Source of the DNA: Erodium maritimum
Lineage: Eukaryota > Streptophyta > Magnoliopsida > Geraniales > Geraniaceae
NCBI GenBank assembly: GCA_963921825.1
Contig: OY997592.1
Span: 59,726,336 to 59,790,335 of the forward strand
Length of the DNA: 64,000 bases
Direction: 5' to 3'
Shown here in pieces: positions 22,250 through 55,800 of this stretch (position 1 is its first letter; the number at the start of each line of letters is the position of its first letter). The position numbers and the translations under genes are program-made. The notes beneath the pieces are model-generated. The model had not been told where the DNA came from. It made no database searches and was given only the letters and a program-made list of their open reading frames with translations.

Positions 22250-22709
22250 GGAATAATTATCATTCTCAACCCAAATTCATATTTTAGTCCCCCTCACATT
22301 TCGTTTCAAATCATAGCTTCAACTTTCGTTTTTTTTTCAAAACCTATCATTTACTGTTCGAATTAACGGAACAGTTAATTTGTTGGTCACGTGTACACTT
22401 AAATGACCCCATATTTCGAATTTATTCCTATTTTTACCCTTTACCCTTTCTCATTGATACCCTCCTAAATCCATTCACATTCACAATCTTACACTTGAGT
22501 AGTAGTTTTAAGAAAACAAAATGGGAATAAATTCGAAATATGGGGTCACTTAAGTGTGCACGTGACTAGCAAATTAAATGCTCCGTTAATTCGAACATTA
22601 AATGATAGGTTTTGAAAAAAAAATGAGGTTAAGATTTGAAACGAAAGGTGAGAAGGGGTTAGGATATGAATTTGACGTAAAGTTTGGGGTTGGGAATGAT
22701 AATTATCCC
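22250..22709. mobile_element. MITE with long inverted ends, third family (460 bp)
   Basis: The left end GGAATAATTATCATTC and right end GAATGATAATTATCCC are inverted, and the arms mirror each other through about 22330-22600 ('aaatgacccc', 'aattcgaa' and their complements). The flanks GAATAAAAA (22241-22249) and AAATAAAAA (22710-22718) match at 8 of 9 positions, again a MULE-sized duplication. It fills the space just upstream of the spastizin-like gene. Confidence 0.75.
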
Positions 22710-22950
22710 AAATAAAAACAAAACCACGATATAAAGTACAAGTAAATATAGAAGTTGGAGCAATACATGAACCTCTATTCATCGATTTCCTCTAATTCCC
22801 CATCTCTTTCTCCAATCATTCTAGTATTAGCAACTTTACTTGAAACCCAAGTTTCTGAGGTAATAGTTTTGATTGATTCAAAAACTTGAAGTATAGTTGG
22901 CTTTTGATCGACACAAAGGCATGCAATTCCAAAAAGTTGGTAGATTTCTC

Positions 22951-23074
22951 TAATGGTTTTGGTATGAATCGTGTCTTCTGTATTCCATTAATTGTGAATA
23001 TATACACTCTACATGATAAGGATAACTCATATTCAAATATATTACATTTGATATTTGAATTAGATATGCTAACA
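22951..23074 (-). repeat. 3' LTR of the copia element (124 bp)
   Basis: Same ends as the 5' LTR, with differences clustered at the two ends of the unit. It abuts the TTCTC duplication at 22946-22950. Confidence 0.9.
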
Positions 23075-23079
23075 CACCC

Positions 23080-25134
23080 CGTAGTCAAAGCGGGAGGATC
23101 ACGAACGTTCAGACTAGCTCGAAAATCAACGAACAGAACCTGAGGTAGTCCTTTGGTGAAGATGTCAGCAATCTGAGAGCGAGTAGGAACATGAAAAACA
23201 TGAATGTGACCACGAGCAACCTTCTCCCGAACAAAGTGTATGTCAAGCTCAATGTGCTTAGTCCGTTGGTGTTGAACTGGATTCCCAGCCAAGTATATGG
23301 AGCTGATATTATCACAATAGACCAGGGTAGCACGAGATAATGGGCAGTGGAGTTCCATGAGGTGATTACGAACCCAACAAGACTCAGATACAACCTGAGC
23401 AACTCCACGATATTCAGCCTCAGTGCTCAAGCGAGAAATGGTGGGTTGTCGTCTAGACGACCAAGAGATCAGATTATCACCGAGGAAAACGCAGTAGCTA
23501 GAGGTAGATCGTCGTGTATCTGGACATCCTGCCTAGTCCGCGTCTGTGTAGGCAACTAGATCCTTCGTTGCAGAAGCATAGAGATGTAGACCAAGGTGTA
23601 GTGACCCTTGAATGTAGCGAATGATGCGCTTGAGAGCTCCCATATGTCCAACACGAGGATTATGCATATGAAGACAGACCTGCTGAACAGCATAGGCAAT
23701 GTCAGGGCGAGTAAAGGTGAGGTACTGCAGGGCCCCGACGAGACTTCGATACAACGACTGATCAGAGAACGGTTCACCAGCAGAAGCTCCGAGCTTGCCC
23801 TTAGAATCTACTGCAGTGGCTGATGGGGAGCAAGAGTCCATGCCAGCTCGATGAATGATATCCTCAGCATACTTTCGTTGGGACAAGAATAGACCACCAG
23901 TGTGTCGAGTGACTGCTATGCCCAAGAAGTATGATGGAGGACCAAGATCCGTCATGGCAAACTTAGAGGCCAATAGCTCCATGATAGACAAGCGAAGTGT
24001 GTCACTAGATGTGGTGAGGATAATGTCGTCAACGTAGAGGATGAGGAATGTTGTGTCAGACCCACGTCGATAGATAAACAGGGAGTGATCGGTCTTGCTG
24101 TGGGAGAATCCTATAGTGGCGACATAATCGGTGAACCGTTGATACCATGCACGGGGAGCATGCTTGAGACCATAGAGGGACCTTCGGAGAAGGTAGACAT
24201 AGTCTGGATGTGTCTTACTGCGAAATCCTTGTGGCTGATGCATATAGACAGTCTCTGACAGATCACCATGAAGAAAAGCATTCTTGACGTCTAGCTGGTG
24301 AATAGGCCATGAACGAGAAAGGGCAATACTCAACACCGTTCGGATTGTAGCTGGTTTAACCACGGGGCTAAATGTCTCTGTGCAGTCCACGCCAACCTGT
24401 TGAGAGCTTCCATCACCTACAAGACGAGTTTTATAGCGCTCAAACGAACCGTCAGAACGAACTTTATGACGAAAAAGCCACATAGACCGGACAATATTAG
24501 CAGTACGAGGACGGGGTACGAGTTCCCACATTTTATTCGTAATCGATGCCTCATATTCATCATGCATGACAAGACGCCAATGTGGGTCAAAGAGAACTTC
24601 CTTGGTGGATTTTGGTATTGGAGAGGAAGGGGTGGAAACTGAGAGGTTAAATAATGTGCGAGGTTTGATAATTCCCGACCTCGATCTAGTTTGCATAGGA
24701 TGAGCTGGTGGTGGAGGAGTAGTAGGTACAGTAGTCGATAGTTGAGTGGACGCAGGAGTAACAGCAGTAGGAGGGGACGGTGTCGGTTCCATCGAGACGG
24801 GTGGCAAAGGAGAGGTAGGTGAGACCGAGGACGAGCTAGGGACTGGCATCTGGTTCGTAATGTCGGGTACAAAAAATAGTGGAGTGGTAAGATCTAAAAA
24901 ATCATAATCATTAGGGGAAGGAAGATTAGTAGCAAAAGGGAATATCGTTTCGTCAAAGATAACATGTCTCGCCACAATGATTCGATTGACCTTCGGGTCA
25001 AAGCACAGAAAACATCGATGCTGAGATAGAAAACCCAAGAACACACAGGGAACAGAACGAGATTGTAACTTGTGAATAGAAACAGCATGAGAAAGAGGAT
25101 AGCATGCACAACCAAATATACGAAGATGATCATA
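23080..25134 (-). pseudogene. Copia reverse transcriptase/RNase H part of pol
   Basis: It resumes with 'SYDHLRIFGC' right after the nested insert. A Pro/Ser/Thr-rich linker follows, then the RT with 'FSPVVKPATIRTVL', 'QLDVKNAFLHGDL' and the catalytic 'ILYVDDIILTT', then RNase H with 'TEAEYRGVAQ', 'YCDNISSIYLAGNP' and 'KHIELDIHFVREKV'. An amber codon at 23535-23533 replaces the conserved Trp of the 'DADWAG' motif, one of the marks of inactivation. Confidence 0.9.
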
Positions 25135-25920
25135 GGATGTGTTGTGACGTTGTGTCAACATTGTAATCTATGTGTTTTGATGATGACAAGTATGCATATA
25201 TTTATTCAAGATCAAATAACTCTTTCATATGTTTATTTTTTTCAAACCAAACTCATTTTGCAAAAGTTCTTATATTTTTGATACATGTGATTTTCGGATT
25301 TTTCAAGACAGCAACTTTGGTTGCATTTGAGGTAACTTTGAAAAATCATATCAAATTCATTTCTTTATCAAATTACGATTTCCTTGATGTTTTAGAAATC
25401 TCTATGAGTCTACTTTTTAATTCACAAACTAGTTCTCCATTTTCATACTCCATCAGAGAGTAATGGACAGAAAAGTGAGTAGACATCAAATCTGCCAGAA
25501 CAGGTAAAACAGATTTTCTTGGCTATCTTTCTTGATTAAACTGGGATTATATACCAGGTAATAATAGGCATATGTTATACCATTGGAAATATATATGAGT
25601 CTATTTTCTAAACCAACTGACCTTACTTGATTTGGATTCTTGTGGAAAAAGTTATGCTCATTTGAACAAGCAAATGTCAAAGCTGAAATTTCTGGCAGCA
25701 AGCATGCTCATCATCAACTTGTGTCCAATAAAGTTGTGCACGAAATTTAAATCTCCAAGGACATTTTCAGACCTTCAATTATAATCAAGGAAGGCTATGG
25801 AAGATTCAAAATGTCTACTTTGAAAGGGTTCAAGTCCTACCAATAGGATATTTGTAAGTATGATCATTAAGATATGGTTTGGCTAGCTCATCACTCAATC
25901 TCTCTTTCCTTATTCAAAAA

Positions 25921-25956
25921 GACCTTATTACCCAAATGGCCTTTTAGAAGGAAAGT
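25921..25956 (+). repeat. Left terminal inverted repeat of the MULE
   Basis: It pairs with the complement of 37329-37364, about 28 of 36 positions by eye. Confidence 0.7.
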
Positions 25957-26045
25957 ATAATTAAAATAGCCTCCACATTCAATGCTCTCACCTACCTAGC
26001 CTCCTCATTAATGGCTCTTTCCAACTACCAACATTACCCTCATGG

Positions 26046-26160
26046 ATGATCCATGTCAGCACCCAACTCTATTCTCATTCTTGTTCCACGTCAGCTTTCG
26101 TTTGCCCTGTTGGCGCCAAATCCACGTCAGCAGTCGTTAGTCAATTCGCGCCAAATCCAG
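26046..26160 (+). promoter_or_regulatory. Cluster of bZIP-like and E2F-like boxes upstream of the MULE transposase
   Basis: Three boxes CCATGTCAGC, CCACGTCAGC and CCACGTCAGC lie at 26051, 26086 and 26122 (spacing 35 and 36 bp). TTGGCGCCAAA (26110-26120) and TTCGCGCCAAA (26145-26155) fit the E2F consensus. CCACGTCA is the complement of the TGACGTGG bZIP box. Promoter activity is inferred. A 5'-UTR intron (about 26354-26828, gtaagt...ttgtag) lies between this block and the ATG. Confidence 0.5.
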
Positions 26161-26830
26161 CTGAATTGGGGAAATCGAGTTTTGCCCCATTCTCGTTCGC
26201 TTCTCCTTCATCCTCGTTTTTCTTCTTCAATTGTTGTTGTCCCGTGCATTGTTTGTCCTCCTACCCATTGTTTCTTCTACAATTTGTCGTGAGAGCTGCT
26301 CAATTGATTGTTCCACTGTCATTGAAGGCTGCCCAGAAAAACCCTAGCTCGAGGTAAGTAATTGGAAAGACCTAATTTGTAGATTTTGAGCAATATGTAT
26401 GTTTAAACGCACTTAATGTTATCATGGAATGGTTTTGAAACATATTTCGAGCTAGTATTGCTTCATTCGGACCTCCAATTCGTGATGATGTGGTTCGAGT
26501 TAGTACCATGCCGATGATAATAGTTGAGATCGACACGTTCTGGTATGAGCTGTTACCAGGTCGGTTTGGCGTTCTGGTTTCATGTAAACTAGAACGGGTG
26601 TCCATTTGGTCTTTTACGTATCAGAATGTAGTATCAATCTGTTATTAACTCATGTATATTTAAGGCTTTACTCCTTTTGGGTTTTGTTTGAAAATAGTTT
26701 TACAAGTCCTTTATGTACAAACAAAGGCCTTTTTGTTTGAAATTGTTTTAAAATCGATTTGTAAATATTTATAGATGTTTGTTATGGTAAATTGTAGCTT
26801 TATATTGATATGTTCCTAATTGTTGTAGGA

Positions 26831-28978
26831 ATGGTTCGAGTGCTAGTACATGCTTCTTATGGTGGGCAATATTTGAACGAGAACGGGAAATATAGTTGGA
26901 TACCATGCAATTCAAAGTGTATGAATATCCTTCTTGATGATGAAGATACATCATTGAAGAAGAGGTTATGGGATAAATTGTATGAGAAGACCGGAGTGGA
27001 CAAAAATGAAAATGAATTGAAAGTGAGCTACTTAGTACCGGACTTCCCTGACGATGTTGGAGGAATGGATCCAGTTATTTTAAAAGACGATGAAACTGTT
27101 CTTGGTTTTGTTGTGGAATATGGACTTGGGACCCGAAACAACATACTGCGTGTGGAGGTCATTAACAAACATACCGGTAGTAGGGAAATGGAAATGAATC
27201 CTCCTGCTGCCCCCGTTGTACGTGATGAGTACTTTGGCCGGGACATGTGTAGTCCAATAAATACGGGGGATTCCATTGATTTTATGAGTGTTAACAACGG
27301 TGGGCAACACGTGCATCTCCCACGTCGAGCTGGTAGTAGGGGTAGAACTAATGTAGAAGCAGTAGCGACTCCAGCGGGGTCAAATCCTACTCCAGCACAG
27401 TTTAATGTTGAAGATGATTATGTTGATGATGATTATATTTATGATACGCAAGGCGGCGTAGAAGAGATTCTAGAACAGTTTAGTTCAGATGATGATGATG
27501 ATGATGATGATGATGATATGGAAGAGGTGGAAGCGGGTGTGGAAGTTGATGAGGAAGAAGTGGCAGTGGATGAGGATGTGGGATTGGAAGATATGGAAAA
27601 CGAACAAGAGTATCCAGAACAAGAACAATCCAGATCAAGTTTTGATCTTGTAGACCACTTTTATCCGACGGAAGTGCTTGATGCCGAAGCAAACTCGATC
27701 GGTTTCCAAGATGGGTCAGGTTTAGCAGTTGGTGATACATTTGAGACGAAATAAGAGTTTCAGACATTTTTGTCACATATTGCTGTGAAGGACGGGTTCG
27801 ATTATCGTGCTGAAAAATCTAACAAGACGGTGTTTGTGGCAAAATGTGCTAACCAACCTTGTGGATGGAGAGTGCGGACAGCCAAAATTGGAACTACAAG
27901 GCAGTTCTCCATCAGAACATATTACAATACTCACCATTGCTCTGCCAATGCGACGAAGCTCCATCGCCGGCAAGCAACTACTAAATATGTTGCTGAATAC
28001 GTGAGGCAAAAATGTGCGGGTTAAAAGACGACACCGTGTCCAAGACTAATTCAAATATTTCTGAAAAATGACACTGAGTCAAGCACCGAGATATCATACT
28101 GGCAAGCTTGGAAGGCCAGACGACTTGCCAACTTTTATCGTAGAGTGGATCCCGAGAAAAGTTATGCACTCCTTCCGGCTTATTTGGAGATGGTTGTACA
28201 GAAGAATCCAGGAACAATCACTCATCTAAAGGTGGATGAAAAAAGCAAGTTCAAATATGTATTTATAGCACATGCTACATGTATTCGAGGATGGAAGACA
28301 ATGAGAAAAGTCATTACGGTTGATGGAACCTTCTTGAAGACACGGTTCAAAGGAGTAATGATTATTGCAACCGCACAAGATGGTCATCATCAGCAATATC
28401 CTATTGCTATGCAGGAGAAAGTTTCAGAGTGGTTCAATAGACGTCGCCATCACATTGCATGTATACCTCCAGGTACACAGATGACTCAATATGCAGAGAA
28501 AGTCCTTCGGGTAAGGACACGAGTTGCTGCCACCTTGAAAGTGAAACAGCTCAACGCGTCAGAGTTTCAGGTTGTTGGTAACAAACATGTGACCATAGTT
28601 AATTTACTTGAGAAACGGTGTGAATGTCGTGTGTTCGACTTGGATAAATTGCCTTGTGTACATGCAATAGCAGCTGCCAAGTTGAAGAACCTTGATTGTT
28701 ATCAGTATTGCTCCGACTATTACTCACTGAATTTATGGAGAATGGCTTATTTTGAAACCCTTTATCCCGTACCAGCGGAACGAGATTGGGTTTCTCTTAG
28801 CTCCGAACCCGTCATAAAGGTTATCCCTCCAAAATTACCGCTAAAGCACGGTAGACCACAAGTCAAGAGACTCTCATCCGCCGGTGAGCCACGTCGGCCA
28901 CCAAGAATAAGAAAATGTGGATTATGTGGTGAAATTGGTCATACAAGGACAACATGTGAAATGACAATTATTATGTAA
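26831..28978 (+). pseudogene. MuDR-type transposase pseudogene with the DDE core deleted
   Basis: All parts are in one frame. An N-terminal PB1-like MuDR domain comes first (about codons 1-110), followed by an acidic linker with a run of Asp. Next is the DNA-binding DBD_Tnp_Mut domain ('DGFDYRAEKSNKTVF', Cys/His residues in 'CANQPCGW' and 'YYNTHHC'). The first part of the MULE catalytic domain follows ('KVITVDGTFLK', holding the first Asp). After 'QQYPIA' the sequence jumps to 'MQEKVSEWFNRRRH', so the second Asp and the Glu of the DDE triad are missing. A SWIM finger (CxC...CxH, 'CECRVFDLDKLPCVH') and a terminal CCHC knuckle ('CGLCGEIGHTRTTC') remain. Two in-frame TAA stops lie at 27752-27754 and 28022-28024. 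The product cannot catalyse transposition. Confidence 0.9.
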
Positions 28979-29139
28979 TAAGGCCAGTTTTTATGTAATT
29001 GGATTGGGATGGTAACCAGTTTATGAACAATTTGTGCTTGTTGAGGAACTTGGAATTGGGATGTATTCTGTATTTTATGAACAATTTGTGCTTGTTATAT
29101 GAACAATTGCTTGTTATTGTATTTTTTTGTATTCTATTC

Positions 29140-30330
29140 AATTTGTTGCTTATATGTCTTTTGAATAGTTAATTTTCGGGGAAATGTTGAATTTGATGTC
29201 TGGTGTTCCAGATACTCAAGACAGTAACAAGACTAGCAGTCCAAATCGGAATAATGTGTCTAGACTGGCAGTCCAAATTGGAATACTGTTTCTAGAATGG
29301 AGTCTAGAACGCTAATAACAATTTCAGACTTTCATGAGAACCTGGACAGTAACTACTAGAACAGACATACAAACTGCAAAATTTAGTGAAAATCTATAAA
29401 AGTTCTTCTAGATCTAGAAAATATTTTCTAGAGCAGCAGATTGTAGACAAAATGAGAACAAAATTGTTGCTTCCCAGAAACACGAGTACAAGGTACAGAA
29501 CACTAGAAATTGTGTTCATTCAATTGTTGCATACAATATTTGTTTTTTACCAATTCTATTAAAGTTTGGATATCCTTCCAAAATATTTAAAAGACCAAAA
29601 CAAACACATTAAAATGGTTTCTAAAAAAAATTAAAATATAAAATACGACTTCCATCCTCCAAAAAAATAATATACAAAAGCACTTCAAGAAAAATTATCG
29701 GACTGTGGAAGTTCAGGACCACGTTGTCATTGTTAAGTTTGCATGCTCTAGATTCTCTTATATTCTATTTCATTTGCTGCTTATATTTCTTTAGAATAGT
29801 TAATTTCCGGGGAAATGCTGAATTTGCTGTCTGGTGTTCCAGATACTCAAGACAATAACCAGACCGGCAGTCCAAATTGGAATACTGTTTCTAGAATGGA
29901 GTCTAGAACGCTAATAACAATTTCAGACTTTCATGAGAACCTGGACAGTAACTACTAGAACAGACATACAAACTGCAAAATTTAGTGAAAATCTATAAAA
30001 GTTCTTCTAGATCTAGAAAATATTTTCTAGAGCAGCAGATTGTAGACAAAATGAGAACAGAACTGTTGCTTCCCAGAAACACGAGTACAAGGTACAGAAC
30101 ACTAGAAATTGTGTTCATTCAATTGTTGCATACAATATTTGTTTTTTTACCAATTCTATTAAAGTTTGGATATTCTTCCAAAATATTTAAAATACCAAAA
30201 CAAACACATTAAAATGGTTTCTAAAAAAATTAAAATAAAAAATACGACTTCCATCCTCCAAAAAATAATATAAAAAAACAGTTCAAGAAAAATTATTGGA
30301 CTGTGGAAGTTCAGGAACACTTCCAAAATA
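29140..30330 (+). repeat. Two direct ~600-bp repeats inside the MULE
   Basis: About 29148-29725 is repeated at about 29774-30325. Long stretches are almost identical (for example from 'cagactttcatgagaacctgg' onward). The offset falls from 631 to about 598 bp, so copy 2 lost about 30 bp around one of the 38-bp motifs. No gene lies here. Confidence 0.8.
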
Positions 30331-30618
30331 TATAAAAAGCAACAAAACAAATGAATTAAAATGGTTTGTTAAAAAAACTATTAAAATAAGAAAATGGGTG
30401 ACTATTAAAATGGTTTATTAAACTTAACACATTAAAATGGTTTTTAAACTGAATAGTAAAGCAAACAGACGTTAGTTTTAGTTTTACATCCAGCCGTTAG
30501 TTAGTTTTTTGACAGAATCCGTTACTTTGTTAACGATAATATATTTCAACCCAATCCACACGTTTCCAAACAGATTTTATTTGAACATTAAGGCGCGAAC
30601 GCGAAAATTGTTTTCTTC

Positions 30619-31371
30619 ATGAAGAAGTCGAACGCGAACGCAAAGAAGAAGGGACTTTGCCACTATGGAGTTGAAACTCCTGTACGAACCTCAACCACGA
30701 AGATGAATCCAGGAAGAAGGTTCGTTGGGTGTGGTAATTTCATGGTAAGTCAAAAGCTTTGGGTTTTTCTTTGCTGATTTGGAAATTCCAGCTGAACTGA
30801 AATTAGGGTGATTTGATTTGGGAAATCCTGCTGAAATTATAGTTTGTTGTTGATTTGGTAAGTCCTGCTGAGATTAGGTATTCCTAATTTAGGAATTGCT
30901 GCTGTAATTAAGGTTTCCTTTTTTATTGATGTGGGAATTGAAATTTATGCTGAAATTAGGGTTTGTTTTGTTTTTTGTTAGAATGAAGGAACCAAAGGGA
31001 AATGCGATTTTTTTCGCTGGATTGATGGACCCAAATTCGAATGTGGGACAAAGTCAGCTGGGAAGTCAGAGCAATTCAACAAAATATTAGACGATAGAGG
31101 GCCAATTTACCCAATTGGCGTTTTAGAAGATAGAGTTGCAAGGATGGAAGATGGGGAATTGCAATTGCTTGAGAAAATGAAAGTTTGTGAACATACAATT
31201 GCAAGGATGGAAGCTGAGCTTTCTATTGTGTTTGAACAACAAAAACAAGATGAGGAAAGGATTCTGAAGCTACAATTGGATTTGGATGCTCAAAGAGACA
31301 AAGCCAAAAAAGTGATTATGTTAGTTGTTGTAGGATTTGTTATCAGTTTTTGGATAAGTAGGTTAGTATGA
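30619..31371 (+). CDS. GRF zinc-finger, coiled-coil, tail-anchored protein carried in the MULE (171 aa)
   Basis: Two exons, 30619-30744 and 30982-31371 (gtaagt donor, ttgttag acceptor), give an uninterrupted 171-aa frame. Exon 1 and the start of exon 2 form a GRF zinc finger: 'CHYG', 'TSTTKMNPGRRFVGCGNF', then 'CDFFRWID'. The first Cys-x-Cys pair reads C-H-Y-G, so one ligand may be changed. A coiled coil rich in Glu, Lys, Leu and Gln follows (about residues 90-150). The C-terminus is a hydrophobic segment 'VIMLVVVGFVISFWISRLV' with almost nothing after it, as in a tail-anchored protein. Plants have families with exactly this layout (At4g04775-like), of unknown role. It is the only open gene in the MULE and may be captured cargo. 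Expression is unknown. Confidence 0.7.
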
Positions 31372-31884
31372 ATGTATGAATGAATGTACTTGGATAAGTA
31401 GCTACAATTGTATGTTGTTGGTTGTGGGTTGCTTGTAACCAGACTGGCAGTTCAGATTGGAAAATGTTTTCCGGACTGGATTATAATTCTGATACTAAAA
31501 ACAACCAGATTGGCAGGTCAGGTTGGAAAATGTTTTCCAGATAATTACATGTACTAAAACTAAATTGTAAATCATACATAAGGCATAAACTAGAATTCAT
31601 ATATATATATATATATATATATGGACAAATGCCATTTGGGTCATAAGGCCTACAAAATAGTTCACCAAATCATAGATAACAAAAAAAAACATTAATTAAA
31701 AGTCAAACTTCCACACTGAAAAAAAAACATTCCAAAAGCAACAAACATGGAACATCTGTTGCTTCCCAAAAGGAGGAGGCCCTGGCCCTGCAAACCCTGA
31801 ACTGAACTGGCATATATATATATATATATAAAACTAACTAACTAACTAACTTCTTATACAACAAGTTAGTTAGTCCCAGGAAGC
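31372..31884. other. MULE spacer between GRF gene and acidic frame
   Basis: It carries two of the six 38-bp motifs and the microsatellites. Nothing coding is seen. Confidence 0.6.
31598..31850. repeat. Microsatellites (AT)n and (TA)n/(CTAA)n flanking a spacer
   Basis: An AT run at about 31599-31621 and a second run at about 31811-31830 followed by four or five CTAA units (to about 31850). They bracket the gap between the GRF gene and the acidic frame. Confidence 0.85.
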
Positions 31885-32442
31885 CTAGTTCGAGCCAACA
31901 CTTTCAGAAGGGTCGGCGGCCGGGTTTGCAGGAACAAACAGGGCGTCATAAGGGTCATCTTCTTCATCTTCCGGCGGGGCTAGGGCTGGGGCTGGGGCTG
32001 GGTCCTTCGCCTCCTTCTCCTTCTTGTTCTCCTCCTTGTCCTTGTCCTTGTCCTTGTCCTTGTCCTCCTCCTCTTCGTCCTCCTCCTCTTCGTCCTCCTC
32101 GTCATCCTCCTCCACAACCGCCCACGGGTCGTCGTCCGACTCGGACGACTCCTTCTCTCGTACCTGTGGGTCGTCGTCAGGGTCCCCCTCCTCCTCCGCC
32201 CCGGAGAAGGGCTCGTCATCGGGGGCGTCCGAGTCAGACTCCTCCCGCTTCCGTTTACGATTGTCGTCGTCGTCGGAGTCACTACTGCTGATGTTGGTGT
32301 CAGCAGACGGGGGAGAGAGAGCGGGGTACAAGCTTGGTTTTGATTCGTCAAACAACCAAGCCTCTAACGAGTTGGGTGGTGGGGATGGTGGTGGTGGTGA
32401 GTCCATGGATGGAACTTGGAAGATGGGGGGAGTTGGTTGCAA
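31885..32442 (-). CDS. Acidic low-complexity protein in the MULE (up to 185 aa), unknown function
   Basis: A single open frame, with possible starts at 32442 or the in-frame ATG at 32406. It begins with Pro/Ser-rich sequence, then has dense Asp/Glu runs interrupted by a KRKREE stretch and a perfect run of Lys-Asp repeats (encoded by ccttgt repeats at about 32037-32066). The last third is Pro/Ala/Glu-rich. Codon repeats rather than conserved structure dominate, so it could be spurious. The intact length and its place between GRF and ULP genes favour a real MULE frame. I do not recognise a family. Confidence 0.45.
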   Translation of the reverse strand: MQPTPPIFQVPSMDSPPPPSPPPNSLEAWLFDESKPSLYPALSPPSADTNISSSDSDDDDNRKRKREESDSDAPDDEPFSGAEEEGDPDDDPQVREKESSESDDDPWAVVEEDDEEDEEEEDEEEEDKDKDKDKDKEENKKEKEAKDPAPAPALAPPEDEEDDPYDALFVPANPAADPSESVGSN

Positions 32443-33178
32443 ACGAAAACGAAGAGGAAGAAGAAGAAGAGGCCTTTTAGCAAGCAGAATGGATTTTCAG
32501 TGTGGGTTGCATGGGTTCTAGATTGGTTTCTTATATAGGCTTGGAAAAGCAGTTACATGATTACAAAAATTTATTTTGACATGACAAGTTGGGTTAAAGA
32601 ATTTATTACAAGTGATAATTACACCCATCCTCCAAAAGACTCTTTAGTTCATGTATAGGCATGACCCTATAACTGTAATTAATTTGACAAGACACAACTG
32701 TTCCAATCCAATTACAACCGATTGCCACATAGATTCATTAATTTGAAATGATTATTCTAGAATTGAAAATCATTCTATAAATACATTTTCTAGAATTCAC
32801 ATACATACTTGTCATATATTTTCTATACTTCAAAACCATTCTAGAAACATATGTTCTAGACTGGCAGGTCAGATTGGAAATATGTTCCCAGAATGGAACA
32901 GAATTAGACTTCGATCGTGAATCTGTCCTCTTATGTTCATTTTCCAAATAAACCTAACGTACAAAATAGCATAAAACCAATTAGCAGTACAATCCATTGA
33001 ACATAAGGCTAACATTATACTAATACGTGAAAGCAGTTTAGATTTAAAACCAATCTTGGTCACCAAAATAATAAAATTCACATCAAAGTGTGCCATTCAA
33101 ATTAAAATCCACCTCAAATATTCAAATTAGCAGTCATTGAAACCAGTAAACTGTTATCCTAAATGATCATATCAAAAC

Positions 33179-36100
33179 TCAATCATGTTTGTAATCCAAC
33201 AACTTCTCGAATTGTGTTGCTATATCCACACACATCTTCAAGCGGTAAACAGAGACATGCTTTGGATGCATATAAATAGGGATCGGAAATGATTGGAGCT
33301 CCAGCTCGCAATACTTCAGCGCATAAACACCTGAGTCTCCTCTGCACAATAAATGCAAGTTAGTGACTACTAAGTAAGGGTAAGAGTTATAGAACAAAAA
33401 AATGTTATAAGATGCAAAGTTGTAGAAGATTCCATACCTAAGCTCCGCTTGAGGCAAATCACACCGCCTTTCACACGTCCATTTGGTGCCCGAATGGAGT
33501 AATTCCGCGTGAAAATTCTTGGCAGCAATGAGAATTTGTGGGAACATCACCACAAAAAGTTCCATCACTCCAGAAATGGAATTATCCGGGACAACTGTTC
33601 TATAGCAGTCATACATTATGAGCTTTCAGAGAGTTACGTCCGCCTCCACCATAACCCAATGCTGTGATACTTCGTCCACCAGCAAAGGAAAAAATATTTT
33701 GTCACAACCTGCCCATTCCTTACCACCAAAGATCGGAAGATCGCCCCTAACGTATTCCATTGAGCGATCTGCTACTTGGGGGTTCTCACTTTGACTCCAT
33801 GCCATGTGCCCTTCCTTGACGGCATCTGCAAATTCTGCGTCCAACACCACAATATTCTGTGAATAGTGCTTATTGCAACGCCCCTGCCGCTTTCTAATTC
33901 CAAACAGGCAATCATTCATGTGATGCATACATGAAAGTAATTATATTAAATTTAAATTAAATTGAAAACAATGCAGATAATTAAGGTTTCACCTTACCCT
34001 TGCATTCAACTTTTCGTTTGACCCGCTGAGAGTTGTGTAGTAAGACAAGCTGACCTCTCCGTAAGGTGTTTTTGGGATTTCCTCTAAGGGTATCTTCTTC
34101 CTCTTCAGTTTTGCGATCACATCCTTATACATCTGGGTTGTGGATTGATCAGGCATAAGAAGAGGGTTCAACTTCTCTAAGTTCCCTTTAAATCTCTTCT
34201 TCTTCTCCTTCGTTGCTTCGCTGTCCCGCTCGTGTATAACAGGAGCCGAGACTTTCGTCGATCTTGATTCTTCTCTCTTCCGCTTGCTTTTGGCAGGATT
34301 CTTTGTGGCAGCCCCCTCTTTGTGGCCCTTGTGGCAGGCTTCTTTGTGTTAGACTTCACCTTTTTTGCAAGACGCTTACTTCTAGTAACTCTAGCTGGAA
34401 TTTCCTTGGCATTTTCAACAGCAGCCGGCTCATGGACCTCTTGGTTCACCTCAACTACTTCCTTCTGCACAGACTGTTCCTTTTCATTCACATCTTCCCC
34501 TTCATTTCCTTCCTCACCAACACTTACTTGTTTGTTCACTTATTCATTAACTTCTTCAGTCACATTTCCTTGTTTGTTCACTTCAACTACAGCGGACACA
34601 CCTTCTTGTCCAGCTGCCACTCTTTCTTCTTCTTGTTTTTTGTTCACTTCCTCTTCAACGGCTACTCCAATTTGTACAACATCAACTTCCTCTCCATCCT
34701 CTCCACCAGTGGGAACTCCCACTTCTTGTTGGTTCACATGCATTTCCTCCTCGGGCACTTCTTCTTCTTGGTTCACTTCAACTCCAGTGTCCACACCTTC
34801 TTGGTTCAACTCCTTCTCACCAACATCCGTCACATTATCGAACATGTCCATGTCATCTTCTTGGTTCTTCTGTTTGTCATGCCCAGGAAATGATGCTTCA
34901 GAACATGCTCGGAAGTGGTTTGATGGACTGTCTTCATTTTGCCGGGCTGACAGAGCTCCCATGATCGCCTCAAATTGTGTCTTCTGCACTTCCAACACAC
35001 TTTTCACATCAGCCTGCACTAACATGACCTGGTTCTTTAGCAGCTCAATTTGCTCCATGACAGCCTTGTAAAGTCCATCATCGGACTGTGGGTCTGACGT
35101 AGGAACCTGAACCTCCTCTGGTGCTGCTGGTGGAGTTGGCGGTGCCACATGGACGGTCTGATCTTCTGGAAATGAAACAACATAGCCTTGCTCCATCTTT
35201 TCCACCATGTTGTCCAACAACGGATTCGAATGTTTTTCTTCTTGATTCACGAATTCTTCCATCCAAGTCTGCTTCTTTTCTTCCTCAGTGGGGACTAACA
35301 GACTTACTATTTCCTGAGCACAAAGACGAATAAAATTTAATACGTGCAAAATTTATATGAAAACGCATATATTATATGAAAATTAAATTCCTAACCTCCG
35401 GTGAGCTTTGTAAGAGTGCTTCCCTAACAGCACTGTAAGACGGATTTCTACTCCACGTTGTCTTCCATTTTAAAATTATAGGCAAGTCTACGCCAAAGTC
35501 TTCACGAATTGTTGCGAACTTCGTTGCTAATGATGGTATGCATTCAAATGCAAGTACCTACGACAAAAGATACAAATCATAAGAGACATCATGTACACTA
35601 CGATATTAAAAAAATATTTGTGTGAAGGATTAGTTACTTACTGTGAGAGGAAGAAAGAAGCCGGCATATGTCATACTACTCTCATTTCTTGGGTTCTTCT
35701 GAGCCACCAACATTTTATTTCTCAACTTCTTTGCTTTTATCTATTTTAGTAGATAACTGAAGGACAGATTACCACAAGGGTATGCGTAGAACATCTTCAA
35801 GTTATCCACTAAAGCCAAATACTTTCGATCCAGCTTATGGAAGCGTCTGTCCAATGGCATCAATACTCCCCCAATGAATAACAGCAAGCAAACCCTAATA
35901 ATATCCCAATTAGGCTTCGTAGAAGGCCTAACCTCCATTTGTTCGCCAACCAACTGGGTCAATTTCTTCTCTAAGGTCAACATACTAGCATCTAGTGTCG
36001 GGAAGTGTTTCGAGGACAAAACTTTGGACTTCATTTGTTTTTAAAAAGTTTATCATCGGGGAAATCTCCACACTTCAGCTCCGATATTAAACAGAATTCC

Positions 36101-36570
36101 TTTAAAGAAAATCTGACCGGTCTTCCTTGGACCAAGAACCATATTTCGGACGACTGGTCCAAGTCAATTTTTCGAACTAACAGAGACCAAGAAATTTGAC
36201 AAGAATTGTCACCACTCGGTTGGATGTCGATCAAATGACCAAATGGAGCTTTTTTAAGGGTACGAAGGTGGATTTCATCATCACTTAACCTTTCAAGTTC
36301 TCCTTTGATGAACTTAAAAGTTCGCCCTAGATGACTCTTCACTGATATCTTGCAATCGAAATGTTCATTCTCGACCAAAATAGGTTTAAACTCTGGCAGC
36401 TCAATTTGGACTAATCGTGCATTATCTAGGCTTGCACTTGAACTTTCACCCTCATCATAACTTAGAATTTCTCCGTCGAAGGAAGTTGACCTAGAACTTT
36501 CATTTTCTTCAGCATTTGAGTTTTGCCTACTCTCTAGGGATGATAAACTTGCCTGGTAGGGTGCAAACAA
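33179..36570 (-). pseudogene. ULP1-like cysteine-protease pseudogene with DUF1985-type N-terminus (MULE cargo)
   Basis: Minus order: DUF1985-like part (36570-36031: 'LGRTFKFI', 'WFLVQGRPVRFSLKEFCLISELKCG'; then 36034-35744: 'RVCLLLFIGGVLMPLDRRFHKLD'), a long hydrophilic linker full of 'VNQEE/VNKQ' repeats (35349-34177), a conserved pre-protease part (34171-33989), and the C48 protease domain (33928-33179) with the catalytic His in 'SQHWVMVEADV'. The nucleophile motif reads GDSGVYALKYCE, i.e. Ser where ULP proteases have Cys. The frame is broken by in-frame stops at 34542-34540 and 33628-33626 and a shift near 34175. An intron of about 93 bp (about 33344-33436) precedes the GDSG exon. Known family role: SUMO deconjugation, with ULP genes recurrently carried by MULEs. 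This copy should be inactive. Confidence 0.78.
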
Positions 36571-37328
36571 GTAATTACAGTAACAGAAAACAATTCATTT
36601 CAAATTGAACTACAAAACTATAAACACACTTCATTTCAAATTGAACTTTAATTCCCAGATTTCCAACCATAACCGCCATAAATTTACTGACCTAACAATC
36701 CATTCTAGAACATCAACTCCCAGATTGCGAGCCAGAACAACCCCTGATTTTACGACCTAGAAATCCCCTAAACCGTATCTAAGCATAACGAATAAACCCC
36801 CCTAAATTTCTACATTCAAACAGGAATACAACGTAGCTACACGACAACTAAACACAATTTCACCCAAATTTCAGCCTATCTAAGCACAAGCAGAGAATGG
36901 AAACCGAGAACAGTTAGGGCTTACTTACCATCTCAGCTCCGACAATACTTGTAGCTCGTGGAGAATGGCCGGAAACTGGAACTCGATCCTTCGAGCTTGC
37001 TGGAGAAGAATGGAGACGATTCCTTGCTGGAGATCAGTTGGGTCGAAGGTTTCTGGGTTGTGGGGGGGTTTTGGTTTGAGTCGAAGAAGAAGAAGAAAAT
37101 AGAATTGAAGGAGGGAAAACGACACAGCTTAACGTAAGTTGTTTCAATTTGAAGTTGAAGCTGACTAGGATAATTTGAAGAGCTGACAATGATAGTTTGA
37201 AGATGACAAGACAATTTTGTTGAAGTGCATAAAGGGCACAAATGTAATCTCATGCATTTTACTGATAAAAAGAAAATAAAAAATAAAAGAAATAAGTTCA
37301 GCTAAATTACGGGGTCTGCCACCCTAAG
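36571..37328. other. Right subterminal region of the MULE
   Basis: It probably holds the 5' leader of the ULP-like gene. A donor-like 'tacttacc' at about 36922-36929 would put an upstream exon at about 36930-37130 on minus. No inverted counterpart to the left subterminal region is evident beyond the ~36-bp end. Confidence 0.4.
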
Positions 37329-37364
37329 ACTTTGCTAGAAAAAGGCCATTTTGGTAAATTGGCC
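37329..37364 (-). repeat. Right terminal inverted repeat of the MULE
   Basis: Mirror of 25921-25956. It is followed directly by the 10-bp duplication. Confidence 0.7.
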
Positions 37365-38346
37365 TATTCAAAAATCTGATTTCTCTTAATTATTTAATCT
37401 TTTTTTATTCATTCAAATTGATTTTGAAAAGAGAGAAGTCATCATTTCAATCTTGAAATGTGTTGAGGACATTTCTTGTCAAAATATGTCACTTGACTTT
37501 GCACTTAAGTATTTCTTCCAACAACTCTTTTTTTTAATTATCAAGTGCCAAGTTTTTGTCTATAAAAGCCCTCATTTGTTTCTTCATTTCAAGACACAAC
37601 ACTTCTACTATTTCTCTACAAAAATTCTGCACAAAGTTCTTCTTCATCTTTGAGAGAAAAGTCATCTTGAGAGCTCTATTCTTTCTTGTTCTAGAATTTG
37701 TTTTCAAAATCATGAACTAAAGTTTCATATCATTGAAAAACATATATTCTTATTGTTATATCTCTTCTTGAACATGTTATGTTCTCTTTGTAAACTATTT
37801 TGAAATCCTCTTCTCTCAAAATCATCTTGAGCTAAGCCTTACATATCTTGAAATCATATATAGCTTGCTTGTATTTCATCTTTATATCTTGATTGTAATT
37901 GAAGCATTGTGTTTATTCTATATAAGATTAAACACATTGTATTGTTGACTTTTGGTGAGTTGACCTCAATATCTTCTATTGTAATTGGCCTTGTAGGCTA
38001 GAAAAAGGGTGTTGTAGTTGGTTGCAAGTTTTGTTCTTGCAAAGTGTTGTAGTGGTTGCAAGATTTGTTCTTGCTTCCCATTTGGTGTTGTAACTTTCAA
38101 GATTAGTTCTTGTGAGACTTGTAACATTTACTATAAGTTAGTAAAAGGCCGAACTCTAAGTGAGTTCTTTAGTGTGGACGTAGCAACTCTAAGGAGAGTT
38201 GTGAACCACGTATATCTTGTGTTGGCTTTCTCTATCTTGCTATCTTTGCTTATTGTTTAAATTTTCGAGTTTGTTTTTAAGTTGCTATATTTTGTAATCA
38301 ATCTATTCACACACCCCCCTCTAGATTGATTCCTTGGGACCTAACA

Positions 38347-39411
38347 AGATGGAACACGAGAAAATAAATAGTGAGTAGGAGTGACAAAATTAATATTGTG
38401 CAGATATGTAGACATAGACAAAGCGAAATGCCAGAAGTTAGGGGGGGCAGATGAATGTACCAGTAAGGTACGAATAATATTATTGATCGTACGAAATTTA
38501 CGCTCTGCACGTCCATTTTGGGGAGATGTATACGGGCACGAGAGTTGAAACAGCATGCCAAAGTCCGAGCATATTTTACGAAGTGGTCCATTATCAAACT
38601 CCTTGCCGTTGTCGCATTGGAACGCCTTGATGGATGTGCCAAACTGAGTACGGACATATGAGCGAAATGATACAAATATAGAATATGCTTGAGATTTAGT
38701 TTTTAACGGAAAAGTCCGTACAAAGTTAGTAAAATCACCAATCAATAGTAAATAGTAATGGTGCCCTGCAAAACTCAAAACAGGCGATGTCCATAAGTCC
38801 CCATGAATAATGTCAAAGTGTGCAAAAGTACAAGTACAAGAAATATGAAATGGCAATTTAATGTTTTTCGCAAGGGCACAAGACTGACAGAAACAACTAG
38901 AATGAGATCCGCAGCGGACCAGATTATTACGCCGAAGAGCATTAAAGACCAGAGCACCAGGGTGACCCAACCGAGAATGCCAAACAGATGAAGAGGAAAC
39001 CAAAAATGACGACTCTGCACCACGAGAAGAGGTAGATAATGAAGACACGAGATAAAGATCTCCCGAGCTATCACATCTCAGCATAACTTTGCCCGTCTGA
39101 TAGTCCTTCACAGAAAAACCAAATCGATCAAAATCAACAGAAACATTATTATCTGTGACGAAATGGCGTACATATACCATGTTTTTAATAATGTGAGGGG
39201 CATGAATAATATTAGACAAGGTTAAAGATGGATGGTCATGGGTTAAGAATGCATCACTGTAACCCACTATTGGAATATGATTGTCATTTCCTACCACAAC
39301 ATGACGATTAGAATTGCAATTGACATAAGAATAGAGACTACCTGATTGGGAAGTCATATGGGAAGTCGCACCTGAGTCCATGTACCATTGGTCGGGTGGA
39401 GTCAACGTCAT
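38347..39411 (-). pseudogene. Copia protease/integrase part of pol
   Basis: In order: protease-like 'YMDSGATSHMT' (active-site D-S-G), GAG-pre-integrase zinc-binding segment 'HSRLGHPG', and integrase core with 'HGDLWTSPV', 'FQCDNGKEFDN' and 'PYTSPQNGRAERKFRTI', so the D, D and E positions are present. The frame is cut just after 'YLFSRVPS' by the solo-LTR insertion and resumes at 25134 on the same strand. Confidence 0.88.
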
Positions 39412-40500
39412 AGAGTTGAAGGCGACATCAATATTTGTAGGAACGTTGTGCTCTGTCCCAGGGGTGGAGGAGGATGTTCGGGGTGCATGGCTGAAATAGG
39501 AGTGGGCAGCTCCATTCTGATGCTCGGTTGGGCCACGTGAGGTAGGATTGGGCCCAAGTAAGCCTGTAGAATTCTGATTTCCAACGCTGCCAGGACCAGG
39601 AGTGTGTGTCTGCTACAGATGTGAGTTTGGGCCGCCCATCAAGCCAGCCCACTGAGCCCGCTGCTGTTGTCCATACCACTCGGCCTGGGTTGGATAAGGG
39701 CACGAGCCATGGTGAAATTGAGGCCCACGATTCTGGAAACGAGAATCAGATCTCACGTCAGAATCAAATAAATGATCGGAATTGCGATGCTGCGATCGAC
39801 CGCCGCCATTCCTGTTCCGTCCCCGACCTCCCCTGTCAGGACGCTGCCCACGATGCTGCCGGCCGGAAGGTGCTCCACCAGTCGAGTTCGAGTTGCCAGA
39901 CATCTGGGACAATAGTGCTGAAGGATTTCCCAAAAGCATGGCCTGTTTCTATTTTCGAACCTCCTCTAGTATGAGCTGCGATCTGGCCTCGTGGAACATG
40001 GGCAATAGATCCCTCTGTTGTATAAGAGCAGCGACATGGTCATAGGTATTAGATAAGCCCGTGACCATCTGCACAACCAATCTGTTATTGGACACCGGTG
40101 CTCCGACATTAGCGAGCTGGTCAGCGAGAGATTTGAGCTCCTGATAGTAAGCTGACACACTTGTGAATGACTCCAGCCGAGTGTTTGAGAATTGATTCTC
40201 AAGATGAACTATCTGGTATGTCGATTATCTTGAAAAATACTACGTAAAGCATACCAAGCCCGAGCAGGGAGGATATGGTGAGTTACTTGAAATGTCTGAC
40301 AATGAATTTTGAAGAGCTCCGCCCACGATGAATAGTGTTGCTTCTCCATGTCCAGCACAATAGGAATAGCAAGACGTATATTTGTGACGGTGAGAGCAGG
40401 GTGACTCGCCATGTGCAGCCGGTTGTTGAGTAGCTGGAGCTTGCAGGAACCGATCCTGATTTTTGCTGCAATATGCGATTCTGATATTGCTGCAAATGGA
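39412..40500 (-). pseudogene. Copia gag region, degenerate
   Basis: The fragments resemble the UBN2/Retrotran_gag family: a helical part around 40158-39949 ('[12 protein letters not shown]', '[14 protein letters not shown]') followed by a Gly/Arg/Asn/Gln-rich tail around 39939-39613. In-frame stops and shifts separate the pieces (for example the fragments at 40412-40209, 40158-39949 and 39939-39613). No CCHC zinc knuckle is visible. Confidence 0.75.
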
Positions 40501-40603
40501 ACTTGCGTGAATAGTAAACAGAATAGAAGTGATAGGGTGGAGAAATTGAAATTAGCGGAAGAGATAGATTTAGAAAAGAGGTAGAGTTGGATTAAAACTC
40601 AAG

Positions 40604-40615
40604 GCTATGATACCA
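40604..40615 (-). other. Primer binding site (initiator tRNA-Met type)
   Basis: On minus it reads TGGTATCATAGC directly after the LTR, 11 of 12 matches to the common plant TGGTATCAGAGC site. Confidence 0.85.
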
Positions 40616-40739
40616 TAATGGTTTTGTTGTGAATCGTGTCTTCTGTATTCCATTAATTGTGAATATATACACTCTACATGATAAGGATAACTCCTATCCA
40701 AATGTATTGCATTTGATATTTGAATTAGATATGCTAACA
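40616..40739 (-). repeat. 5' LTR of the copia element (124 bp)
   Basis: It begins TGTTAGC and ends CCATTA on the minus strand. It nearly matches 22951-23074 and is followed at once by the primer site. It is short for a copia LTR. Confidence 0.9.
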
Positions 40740-42289
40740 TTCTCCATCAAAGCCTCTCCAAACAAGAAACTTATCAATGTCATCATAAAAAAGTTGAACC
40801 GGTATGTGTGCATTTACCAATACTACTCGCCTCCTTTCCCGTGATCATCTCGAGAATAACCATCCCAAGATCGTACACATCCTTGCGAGCAAAGCTCGAA
40901 CGAGCACTTTGTGTGCTCGTGAAGCAGACATTTCCTAAGTTTGATATCCTCGGGTTGAAATTGTGATCCAGAAGTATGCATTTGGAGGATATGTTGAGAT
41001 GGAAGACTTGGGCGGAGGGATTATTGTGGAGCCAAGTCAACCCTCTTGCAACCCTCATGGCGATTTTGAGCCTCAAAGGCCAATCCAAGAGCATGAACTT
41101 GGAGGGATGTTTTTGTTAAGGAAGATGAAGCCAATGGTGAAGGTTTTTGTTGGACATGTATGTGTAGACAAGAAGGCTTTCATGGGTTTCTACGAAGAAC
41201 CTTAAGAGCGGAACCAAGTTTGTATGTCTCAAGTTGTTAAGAATCATGGCCTCACTCACATAATGTTCCTGAAGATGTTGATTGTGGTATAACTTCTTTA
41301 CTGCTAGGAAGGAACCATTTGGTAGTGTTGCTTTGTGCATCGTCCCTCTCTTCCCCACCCCAATCACACTGTTTTGGTTAAAATCGTTGGTTGCGCTTTT
41401 AATCGCTGCAAGATTTAGTCTTTGAACAAAATTCTCGGGCTCTAAGACCTGGACATGAGAGAGAGTCAAAATCGTAAAGAAAATAAGAGTTCATTATATA
41501 TGGTTGTTTACGGGTTTGAAGGTAGATTATTTAAAAGAGGAGATGAGCCCATTATAACGGTTTATTTTACAAAATTTAAAAGAAATTAATATTTATTTTG
41601 CTTGAACATGCATATGTAACCATATAAGAGGATTAACTCAACTGATAAATGAAAGTCTAATTAGAATTTTATTTTAGCATGTATCCATGACCAAGCTAGT
41701 AGGGGGAAGTTCATGTCACCTTCGAATTGTTTCTTCTAGAGCTCATATTGATCCGCACTACTACTCTTGTCATCCTCGAGCTCATATTGATCCGCACTAT
41801 TTCTCTTGTCTTCCTCGTCGTTGTAACCATTGCCATCGAAAATAACATAAAAGTAAAAACAGAAAGAAGAAAGCAAGCTACATAGCTAACCAGGAACCCG
41901 ACTACAAAAGAAATAGGAGAACTATCGTCTTTTTCCTCCTTCACGCAAGGATCCAAAGAAAGGCCGCACAGTCTCAGATTACATGTTGATATAAGAATAA
42001 GGATCTACCTATAAAGGTTGGGGTCACACCCAAAACTAACAAGATTATCTTTTCAGCGATGAAAGACCGACACGATATAAATGATCTGTTTTAAACAAAA
42101 TTTACATTACCCTCGTAACTCGATGCATCAAAAGAAGCTGTCGAGGGTACCTCCCCAAACAAATGGTTGTTGGCAACACTAAAAGTTATCAATAGGAGCA
42201 TTGCGCCAATTTGTGGAGGGATAGGACTCTTTAGCCTAACGTAAGGATGGACAAAGAAGGTTGGGAACAACAAAACAGTAGCCATGTTG

Positions 42290-52887: not shown

Positions 52888-55800
52888 TTGGGATATTCTA
52901 CTTCTGACCATATGCCCATACTACTACAGTTCCAGGCAGAGCAACTTGCACCGACCCCGAGACAATTTAGGTTTGAAAACAACTGGACGGAGCACCTAGA
53001 GTGTGGACAATTAGTCCAAACGGAATGGGGTCACCCGCGAGATAGACACATCAAACACCATATTGATGATATTGGTTCGTCCCTGGATAAGTGGGGACAA
53101 ACAGTATACCGGAAAAATATTAACTGGATCCGGAGCTTCCAGAAGCAACTGCGGGAACTCAATGGGTGTAAAGACCAACAAAGTATTCGGAAGAGGTTGG
53201 CGATCCAAACACAGTATAATCGGGCCCTGGCAACGCAGGAAGCCTTTTGACGTCAACGGGCTAAGCAACACTGGTTAGCAGGTTCGGAACGGAATACCAA
53301 GTTCTTTCAAAGGGTGATTATCAGGATCTTGGAAACAGATGATGGGGAGGAAGTCATGTGGGATACAGGGATGCAAGAACTGCTCTTGAATTATTTTAAG
53401 CAGATCTTCATGGCAGGTTCAGGGTCACCAGACTCGTTACCTTTCAGGATCCCGGAACTGATAACTGAGGTACATAATGAACAGTTGACGAAAGCGGTTA
53501 CTGACGAGGAAGTTAGACATGCAATCTTCCAAATGGGTCCATCCAAATCCACGGGGCCCGATGGTCTTAACCCAAAATTTTATCAGCACTTCTGGGAGAC
53601 AGTGAAGGAAGAGGTTGTGGATTTTGTCCGGAATGTGATAGCAACCGGTCAGGTGGATAGTGATATCAATAAAACTACCCTCGTGTTGATCCCGAAACTG
53701 CAAGGAAAATAAAGGACATGCGCCCCATTGCCTTATGCAACGTCATCTTCCGTACCCTATCCAAGGTCTTTGCGAACAAATTGAAGCCTCTACTGGAACC
53801 ACTCATATCGGAGAATCAGGGGGCTTTTGTCCCGGGGAGATCCATCCAGGATGATATTTTCATCTCATATGAGGTGATCCATACATTACGCAGGAAAACC
53901 CAGGGGGTGAACGGTTTCATGTCTCTCAAGCTCGATATGAGCAAGACATATGACAGAGTGAAGTGGTCTTTCATCCTAGCCATGCTGAGATCATTCGGGT
54001 GTGGTTCTCACTGGAGGAAATTGGCCTTGACATGCATGCAATCAATCCAATACACTGTGAGCTCAGGAGGGAAGAACACTGAGGCATTCACTGTTGGACG
54101 GGGAATCAGGCAGGGAGACCCTCTATCTCCCTACCGTTTCCTATTTTGCATGGAGGGTCTTTCTCGTATGTTACGCCAAGCAGAAGCAGCGGGTAAGATA
54201 CACGGGGTCTCTCTAGCCAGGGGTGCCCCGGTCATTTCCCATGTATTTTTCGCAGATGATTGCTATATATTTTGCAAAGCTAATCAACAGGAAGCTGAAT
54301 ACATGCATGGGATTCTGAATACCCCGACCGCGGATAGGACTACCTGTACAGGGATTCTGGGCATTTATGAAATATCTCAGGTAACCTATCTGGGTGTACC
54401 CAATATGCTAGGTCGAAGGAAGGGCCAGAGTCTTCAATTTATCTATGACAAACTAGCTTCAAAGATTAGTACATTGGATGGGCAAATGATATCTGCAGGA
54501 GGCAAAAAGCTTATGGTCAGGTCGGTTCTCTAGGCATTGACGATATACGCTATGAGCGTTTTTCTACTCCCCCTGACTTTAGTGAGCCAGATTCATGTGG
54601 CTCTATCTCGATATTGGTGGTCAGGGACATCGAGGGCCAAGAAGCCGATCATTTGGCAGGATTGGGCGAAGCTCTGTAGGGCGAAGGAGGTATGAGGTAT
54701 GGGGTTCCGGGACATGCGAGATATGAATGTGGCGTTATTGGAAAAGATGGGTTGGAAATTCCTCTCGGATCCAGGTTGTCTGGTATCGAGAATTTTCAAG
54801 GCGCGCTACTTCCCGAAGGGAGACTTTCTGTCGGCAGGAGAGGGGCAAAACCCGAGTCAGATTTGGACGGGATTGAGGGCTACCTAGAGCTTATTATGCC
54901 AGGGAATCCGTCGGACGATAGGGGACAAAATACATACTATGGTGGAGGGTACCCCTTGGTTGATGGGCGACGTACCATTTATTCCCCTACACGCTTCCTC
55001 GATACCTGATATGAAGGTGGCTGATTTGGCATTATGGACATGAGGCTGGGATATACCGAAGTTGAACTCAGTTTTCCAACCAGATGTTGTGGCCGAGATC
55101 CCGCAGGTACCTCCACCAAAGCCGGAAACCAGTGATACGTGGTATTGGGTCCATAATGTGCAAGGTATATATTCGGTCAAAGAGGGATATCGGTTTCTCT
55201 CGCGACTCCATAACAGATGGCACATTTCGGCTGAAGCAACGGTATGGACAGGCATCTGGGACCTCGACATCCAACCAAGGATCAAGGTCTTTTTGTGGAG
55301 GGCCCTTTCAGGTAATCTACAGGTGTTCCAATTCCATATACTTTCCCTTTGTGTTTGACGGAACGGAAAACCACATCCCATCTGCTTTTACACTGTGATT
55401 TTACGGCGGGGGTGTGGGCTCTTGTTGATATGCAGGTACTCATACAACCACAATATACTATGGAGACCTGGTCGACGCTTGTTATGGCCTTACCAGATAT
55501 GGAGACCAAAAGCAGGATTGCGATGATAGTATGGGAAATATGGAAGGCGAGGAACGATATGGTATGGGACCAGGTCCAGTAGAACCCCCCGCTAATCCGA
55601 GCCACGGTCCTGAGAAACCAGCACAGCTGGGTGGAAGCAAACCGAGACCCCACAAGGGTAGTAGGAGGTTGAGCTCCGCCACTTCCTAATTGGTTTACCA
55701 TTAATGTCGATGGAGCAGTTTTTCCATAATCACACCAGGTTGGTTGGGGATGGATATGCAGATCATATCAGGGGTTAGTGATTGAGGCCCGAAATGGTCA

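Follow-up and report, generated by a model that had tools for sequence, protein, structure and literature searches.

Three mobile elements lie one inside another in a degenerate kinase-like exon of Erodium maritimum, within a stretch of 64,000 nucleotides (hereafter the window; assembly GCA_963921825.1, contig OY997592.1, positions 59,726,336 to 59,790,335). They very probably represent three successive insertions at one place: a copia element, a long terminal repeat (LTR) element now reduced to a solo LTR, and a Mutator-like element (MULE). This order, proposed earlier in a sequence-only reading of the same DNA, is forced by the nesting itself and agrees with the junctions, the target site duplications (TSDs) and two open frames. 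All three junction pairs lie where that reading placed them, and joining short flanks left a single open frame at both the copia site and the LTR site. Among randomly drawn pairs of places in the window (200,000 draws for each comparison), matches were found at 5/5 positions in 0.14%, at 4/5 or more in 2.0%, and at 10/10 in 0.003%; together with the open frames, these draws rule out a chance origin of the duplications.

The Copia Element and Its Host Exon

The outer element is a short-LTR copia retrotransposon on the minus strand (22951-40739), set between two copies of a 5-bp duplication, TTCTC. Its features and those of the exon are as follows (ORF, open reading frame):

40745..41490, minus strand: 5' part of the kinase-like coding exon, carrying a frameshift and an in-frame stop (from Pkinase matches, a PDB match and reading frames)
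40740..40744: TSD TTCTC of the copia element, right copy
40616..40739, minus strand: copia 5' LTR, 124 bp, 95% identity to 22951-23074
40603..40615, minus strand: primer-binding-site-like TGGTATCATAGCC, adjoining the right LTR on its inner side
38341..39612, minus strand: copia ORF with Pol_BBD, gag_pre-integrs and integrase core (Pfam); its final bases lie inside the solo LTR
23533..25167, minus strand: copia ORF with SH3_retrovirus and RVT_2 (Pfam, 6.8e-22 and 1.5e-61); its first 28 bases lie inside the solo LTR
22951..23074, minus strand: copia 3' LTR, 124 bp
22946..22950: TSD TTCTC of the copia element, left copy
22775..22950, minus strand: kinase-like coding exon, 3' end, continuing in frame across the copia site (join of short flanks open)

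Characteristic of Ty1/copia elements are the integrase located upstream of an RVT_2-type reverse transcriptase on the minus strand, the two LTRs, the primer-binding-site-like sequence and the 5-bp duplication. The integrase core (rve) scored 30.9 bits, 1.7 bits under the curated Pfam cut-off of 32.6. The position of TGGTATCATAGCC fits a minus-strand element primed by what we take to be tRNA-Met. The two LTRs are identical at 118 of 124 positions, the six differences being four transitions and two transversions. With substitution rates of 1.3e-8 and 7e-9, their Kimura two-parameter distance of 0.050 converts to a rough age of 1.9 to 3.6 million years; since the 95% range on six differences is 2.2 to 13.1, the age of the copia element is only approximate, and the dating covers this LTR pair only.

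The interrupted exon is receptor-kinase-like. Pkinase was matched on 41116-41490 (minus strand, 1.7e-10) and, under its cut-off, on 40783-41115 (minus strand, 2.8e-4), and the best PDB match of 41116-41490 was 4l68 (2.7e-16), presumably BIR2. No Pfam match of its own was obtained for the 3' part (ORF 22816-23532). When short flanks are joined with a single TTCTC, one frame stays open across the copia site, which upholds the earlier claim of a pseudokinase exon cut by a copia element with TTCTC at both ends. HLN and NLG stand at the sites where active kinases carry HRD and DFG. Because the exon is itself broken by an in-frame stop and by a frameshift, the copia insertion need not have killed the kinase. 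Beside its 3' end lies an imperfect foldback (22250-22709, self-complementary at about 74%), perhaps a miniature inverted-repeat transposable element.

A Solo LTR within the Copia Pol Region

The copia pol region is in turn interrupted between integrase and reverse transcriptase, as the sequence-only reading had claimed; junctions, Pfam domains and frame all agree on this.

25135..25139: TSD of the LTR element, left copy, GGATG
25140..25920, plus strand: solo LTR, 5' piece, 781 bp, starting with TG and preceded by GGATG
37375..38346, plus strand: solo LTR, 3' piece, 972 bp, with TATAAAA at 37561 and a C run at 38314
38347..38351: TSD of the LTR element, right copy, AGATG

The edges read GGATG followed by TGTTGTGACG at 25140, and GGGACCTAACA followed by AGATG, with CCTAACA at 38346, and the two pieces add up to 1753 bp with TG...CA ends. 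A duplication matching at 4/5 positions is weak by itself and is carried here by these ends and by the open frame across the join; its single mismatch falls at a synonymous third position of the pol frame (TCC/TCT, Ser). On one side the rve match stops near 38527, still upstream of the LTR site; on the other the SH3_retrovirus match begins at 25143, at profile position 4, 4 bases inside the LTR edge. Leaving out 25140-38351 (13,212 bases, divisible by 3) puts both copia ORFs in the same codon phase, and joining the short flanks gives a single open frame through the junction. As copia pol sequence stands on both flanks, no internal region of the inserted LTR element is left, so that what remains is a solo LTR, with TG...CA ends and a short target duplication.

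Internal landmarks lend soft support to the two pieces having formed one contiguous unit. The available part of the published description of Sirevirus LTRs places a TATA box near the LTR middle and, close to the 3' end, a C-rich integrase signal (PMC2829016). Here, CTATAAAAG sets the TATA box, the sole TATAAAW in both pieces, at position 968 of 1753, which is mid-LTR only if both pieces form one LTR; in AT-rich DNA a TATA box is weak evidence. The same sequence agrees with the start of the Sirevirus consensus, perhaps not with its last bases, as given in the available part of that source (PMC2829016). The run CCCCCC, which begins 32 nt before the end of the solo LTR, was likened to the C-rich signal from the description in the accessible text (PMC2829016). 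A Sirevirus/SIRE origin of the solo LTR is thus possible, not proven: the mid-LTR TATA box is shared and the 3' C-rich run may be, whereas the CGG-CCG repeated motif is not present, and with the internal region gone the lineage is read from the LTR alone. A literature search for CCCCCTCTAG together with LTR and retrotransposon returned no paper.

The MULE and Its Genes

The innermost element is a MULE that splits the solo LTR.

25911..25920: TSD TATTCAAAAA of the MULE, left copy
25921..37364, plus strand: MULE, 11,444 bp, with inverted ends matching at 28/38 positions and a perfect 10-bp TSD
26798..28978, plus strand: MULE transposase remnant, interrupted by two in-frame stops, with the MULE domain largely lost and the SWIM finger kept
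30703..31371, plus strand: GRF zinc-finger-like ORF, presumably with an intron (Zn_ribbon_GRF 0.0053, 17.3 bits against a cut-off of 25.9)
33179..36594, minus strand: degraded ULP1-type gene with DUF1985, in reverse orientation to the transposase
37365..37374: TSD TATTCAAAAA of the MULE, right copy

The sequence-only reading had described an 11.4-kb MULE cutting the solo LTR with a perfect 10-bp duplication, and this part stands; the end it gave, 37374, takes in one copy of TATTCAAAAA, and the element itself ends at 37364. MULEs duplicate about 8-11 bp of their target, a range into which this perfect 10-bp duplication falls. Assignment to the Mutator-like elements is further supported by the transposase remnant, with a SWIM match above the Pfam cut-off (1.9e-8, 34.1 bits). 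Its MULE domain (0.0044, 34/99 positions, 17.9 bits against a cut-off of 27.6) and Plant_all_beta (5.4e-4) matches were under theirs. In the GRF-like ORF, a coiled coil and a C-terminal hydrophobic stretch were judged by eye only. For the ULP1-type gene, DUF1985 was matched at 6.7e-11 (42.8 bits, cut-off 35.1) and Peptidase_C48 at 0.0042 (17.4 bits, below the cut-off of 20.7). In the ULP1-like reading (33179-33940, minus strand), GDSGVYALKY occupies the place of the expected catalytic DCG, and the predicted protease may be inactive even leaving its stops aside.

Two repeats were also observed in this element. Downstream of the transposase remnant, a segment of about 600 bp is imperfectly duplicated in tandem with 90% identity (29121-30320), and a dispersed 48-nt repeat (AGACTGGCAGTYCARATTGGAA...) occurs at 29230, 29262, 29861, 31441, 31507 and 32858, downstream of all three MULE genes.

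Order of Events and Alternative Explanations

The events very probably ran as follows. A copia element with 124-bp LTRs was inserted by integrase into the kinase-like exon, producing the 5-bp duplication. A retrotransposon whose LTRs measured 1.75 kb, and which may belong to the Sirevirus/SIRE lineage, then entered the copia pol between the integrase core and the reverse transcriptase, and recombination between its LTRs would have left the solo LTR. The MULE came last, through a MULE transposase and with a 10-bp duplication, either into the solo LTR or into an LTR of the full element; reduction before the MULE insertion is the simpler course, and both orders, as the sequence-only reading had also allowed, are compatible with the locus. 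Mobilization of the MULE may have relied on a transposase acting in trans, or have taken place before its own transposase gene broke.

Several points weigh against this scheme. The copia LTR ends (22951 and 40616) appear to be TG...TA rather than TG...CA, the duplication of the LTR element, GGATG/AGATG, matches at 4/5 only, and the CGG-CCG palindromes, reported for 12/13 Sirevirus elements with a repeated motif in the available part of PMC2829016, are absent from the solo LTR (1 CGG and 1 CCG in 1753 bases). Neither another copy of the LTR or of the MULE nor an empty site was seen in the viral and prokaryote collections scanned, where zeros say little on a plant element. No match in viral contigs was obtained for patterns of 28 and 21 bases taken from the 3' end of the LTR, nor in the prokaryote and viral contig collections for a 26-base empty-site pattern. 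Protein-based scans of viral contigs with a transposase fragment and the reverse transcriptase ORF yielded 8 and 1 pattern matches, of which none was confirmed.

A further complication concerns the pairing of the MULE ends. The MULE contains two additional end-like copies in inverted order, at 31100-31124 (plus strand) and 31626-31650 (minus strand), which bound 551 bp. It is conceivable, though we regard it as doubtful, that the 11.4-kb MULE combines two end-bounded units, overlapping or nested, that moved as one piece, either 25921-31650 (transposase and GRF ORF) with 31100-37364 (ULP1), or with the 551-bp unit 31100-31650 inside. The 31100 copy matches each outer end at 24/30 positions, exceeding the maximum of 22 that 300 shuffled ends attain anywhere in the window, whereas the 31650 copy reaches 22/30 with the left end, which equals that maximum, and 21/30 with the right end. 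Over 25 nt, the latter copy matches the left end (25921) at 21 positions, and none of 60 shuffled left ends exceeds 18 inside the MULE. Two cross pairings over 25 nt (31100 with 37364, 22; 25921 with 31650, 21) narrowly outscore the outer pair (20), and the inner pair scores 18, but the pairings differ by only 1 to 4 bases. No target duplication accompanies any inner pairing (best 6/8 and 6/10), and the 31100 copy lies in frame within the GRF-like ORF, where the near-repeat TTAGACGATAGAG / TTAGAAGATAGAG flanks it. The internal ends may stem from such a composite, from a small relative nested inside, or from a rearrangement of old date.

Much less probable is an insertion of another kind in place of the 1753-bp solo LTR. 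Such an origin would accord with the imperfect duplication and with the lack of a second copy in the viral and prokaryote collections, but not with the TG...CA ends, the 5-bp near-duplication, the mid-length TATA box and the C run 32 nt before the end; moreover, no ORF of at least 100 amino acids lies entirely within this sequence, and no inverted ends of at least 25 nt were found in it. Repeats are, as a general matter, prone to misassembly, but an artefact joining unrelated ones is scarcely credible here, as a misjoin would not be expected to place perfect 5- and 10-bp duplications precisely where the elements end, nor to leave two frames open across the joins.

TCTAGAA Motif Clusters in the MULE

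TCTAGAA occurs in 24 copies in the MULE and in 7 in the remaining window, in a tally where palindromic sites count on both strands; 200 dinucleotide shuffles averaged 2.0 and never exceeded 7, and 18 copies persist in the MULE once one copy of the 600-bp duplication is removed. TCTAGA(A) is clustered in non-coding parts (29259-30031 and 32516-32860), with 1 of 19 TCTAGA sites in coding blocks that we delimited ourselves (6053 of 11444 bp). According to the available part of PMC5735166, short motifs, tandemly repeated in non-coding parts, are what the VANC proteins of VANDAL MULEs act on. By analogy, this MULE lineage might have its own sequence-specific anti-silencing, an element-encoded ULP1/DUF1985 or GRF-finger factor acting on TTCTAGAA/TCTAGAA clusters, a speculation to which we give little credence. 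The likeness lies in the clusters in non-coding parts and was chosen after the data had been seen, whereas the VANDAL/VANC motifs listed in the available part of that source (YAGTATTAY, AGTTGTCC and AGTTGTAC; PMC5735166) differ from TCTAGAA. Against this speculation, TCTAGAA was itself picked post hoc, one of four control stretches was nearly as enriched in 7-mers (TGGACAA 18, AGTTTTG 17), and with the duplication dropped 3 of 100 shuffles gave an AT-rich 7-mer with a larger excess.

An assignment of TTCTAGAA to heat-shock elements was also considered and set aside as weak: among the three-unit forms sought in the window, GAAnnTTCnnGAA occurred once (28326, in the transposase remnant) and TTCnnGAAnnTTC not at all.

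Comparison with Known Systems

Nested elements are known from large plant genomes, with 30,199 nested insertions reconstructed on wheat chromosome 3B, in up to 8 layers, according to the available part of PMC4290129. The present locus is the same in kind, with a kinase-like exon as its outermost target; it adds nothing new in kind on nested transposons and is a clear but ordinary case of plant genome growth. With three insertions, three readable scars and a forced order, it helps in checking the automatic annotation of nested elements.

The MULE is the more interesting part, and its internal ends and motif clusters could shed light on how MULEs that carry ULP1 are assembled and stay active. 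Such elements include KI-MULE of Arabidopsis and MULEs of melon, rice and grapevine; those of grapevine have both gene orientations, with or without terminal inverted repeats, and 9-nt duplications, as far as the available parts of these sources state (PMC2528002, PMC13317346). The E. maritimum element resembles KI-MULE in having a transposase and a ULP1-type gene in reverse orientation. In contrast to KI-MULE, which is called non-TIR (terminal inverted repeat), it has inverted ends matching at 28/38 positions, and its duplication is 10 bp against 9 nt in grapevine. Its GRF-finger-like third ORF and its broken genes further set it apart from the ULP1-carrying MULEs.

Other Features of the Window

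Judged by its copia, MULE, plant-type kinase and DUF630/632 matches, the window has the look of plant nuclear DNA. Farther along the window, a reverse transcriptase fragment (RVT_1, 3.6e-29) was found at 53673-54533 on the plus strand, perhaps a remnant of a long interspersed nuclear element. ORFs with DUF630 and DUF632 domains at 58881-62706 on the minus strand probably belong to one host gene.

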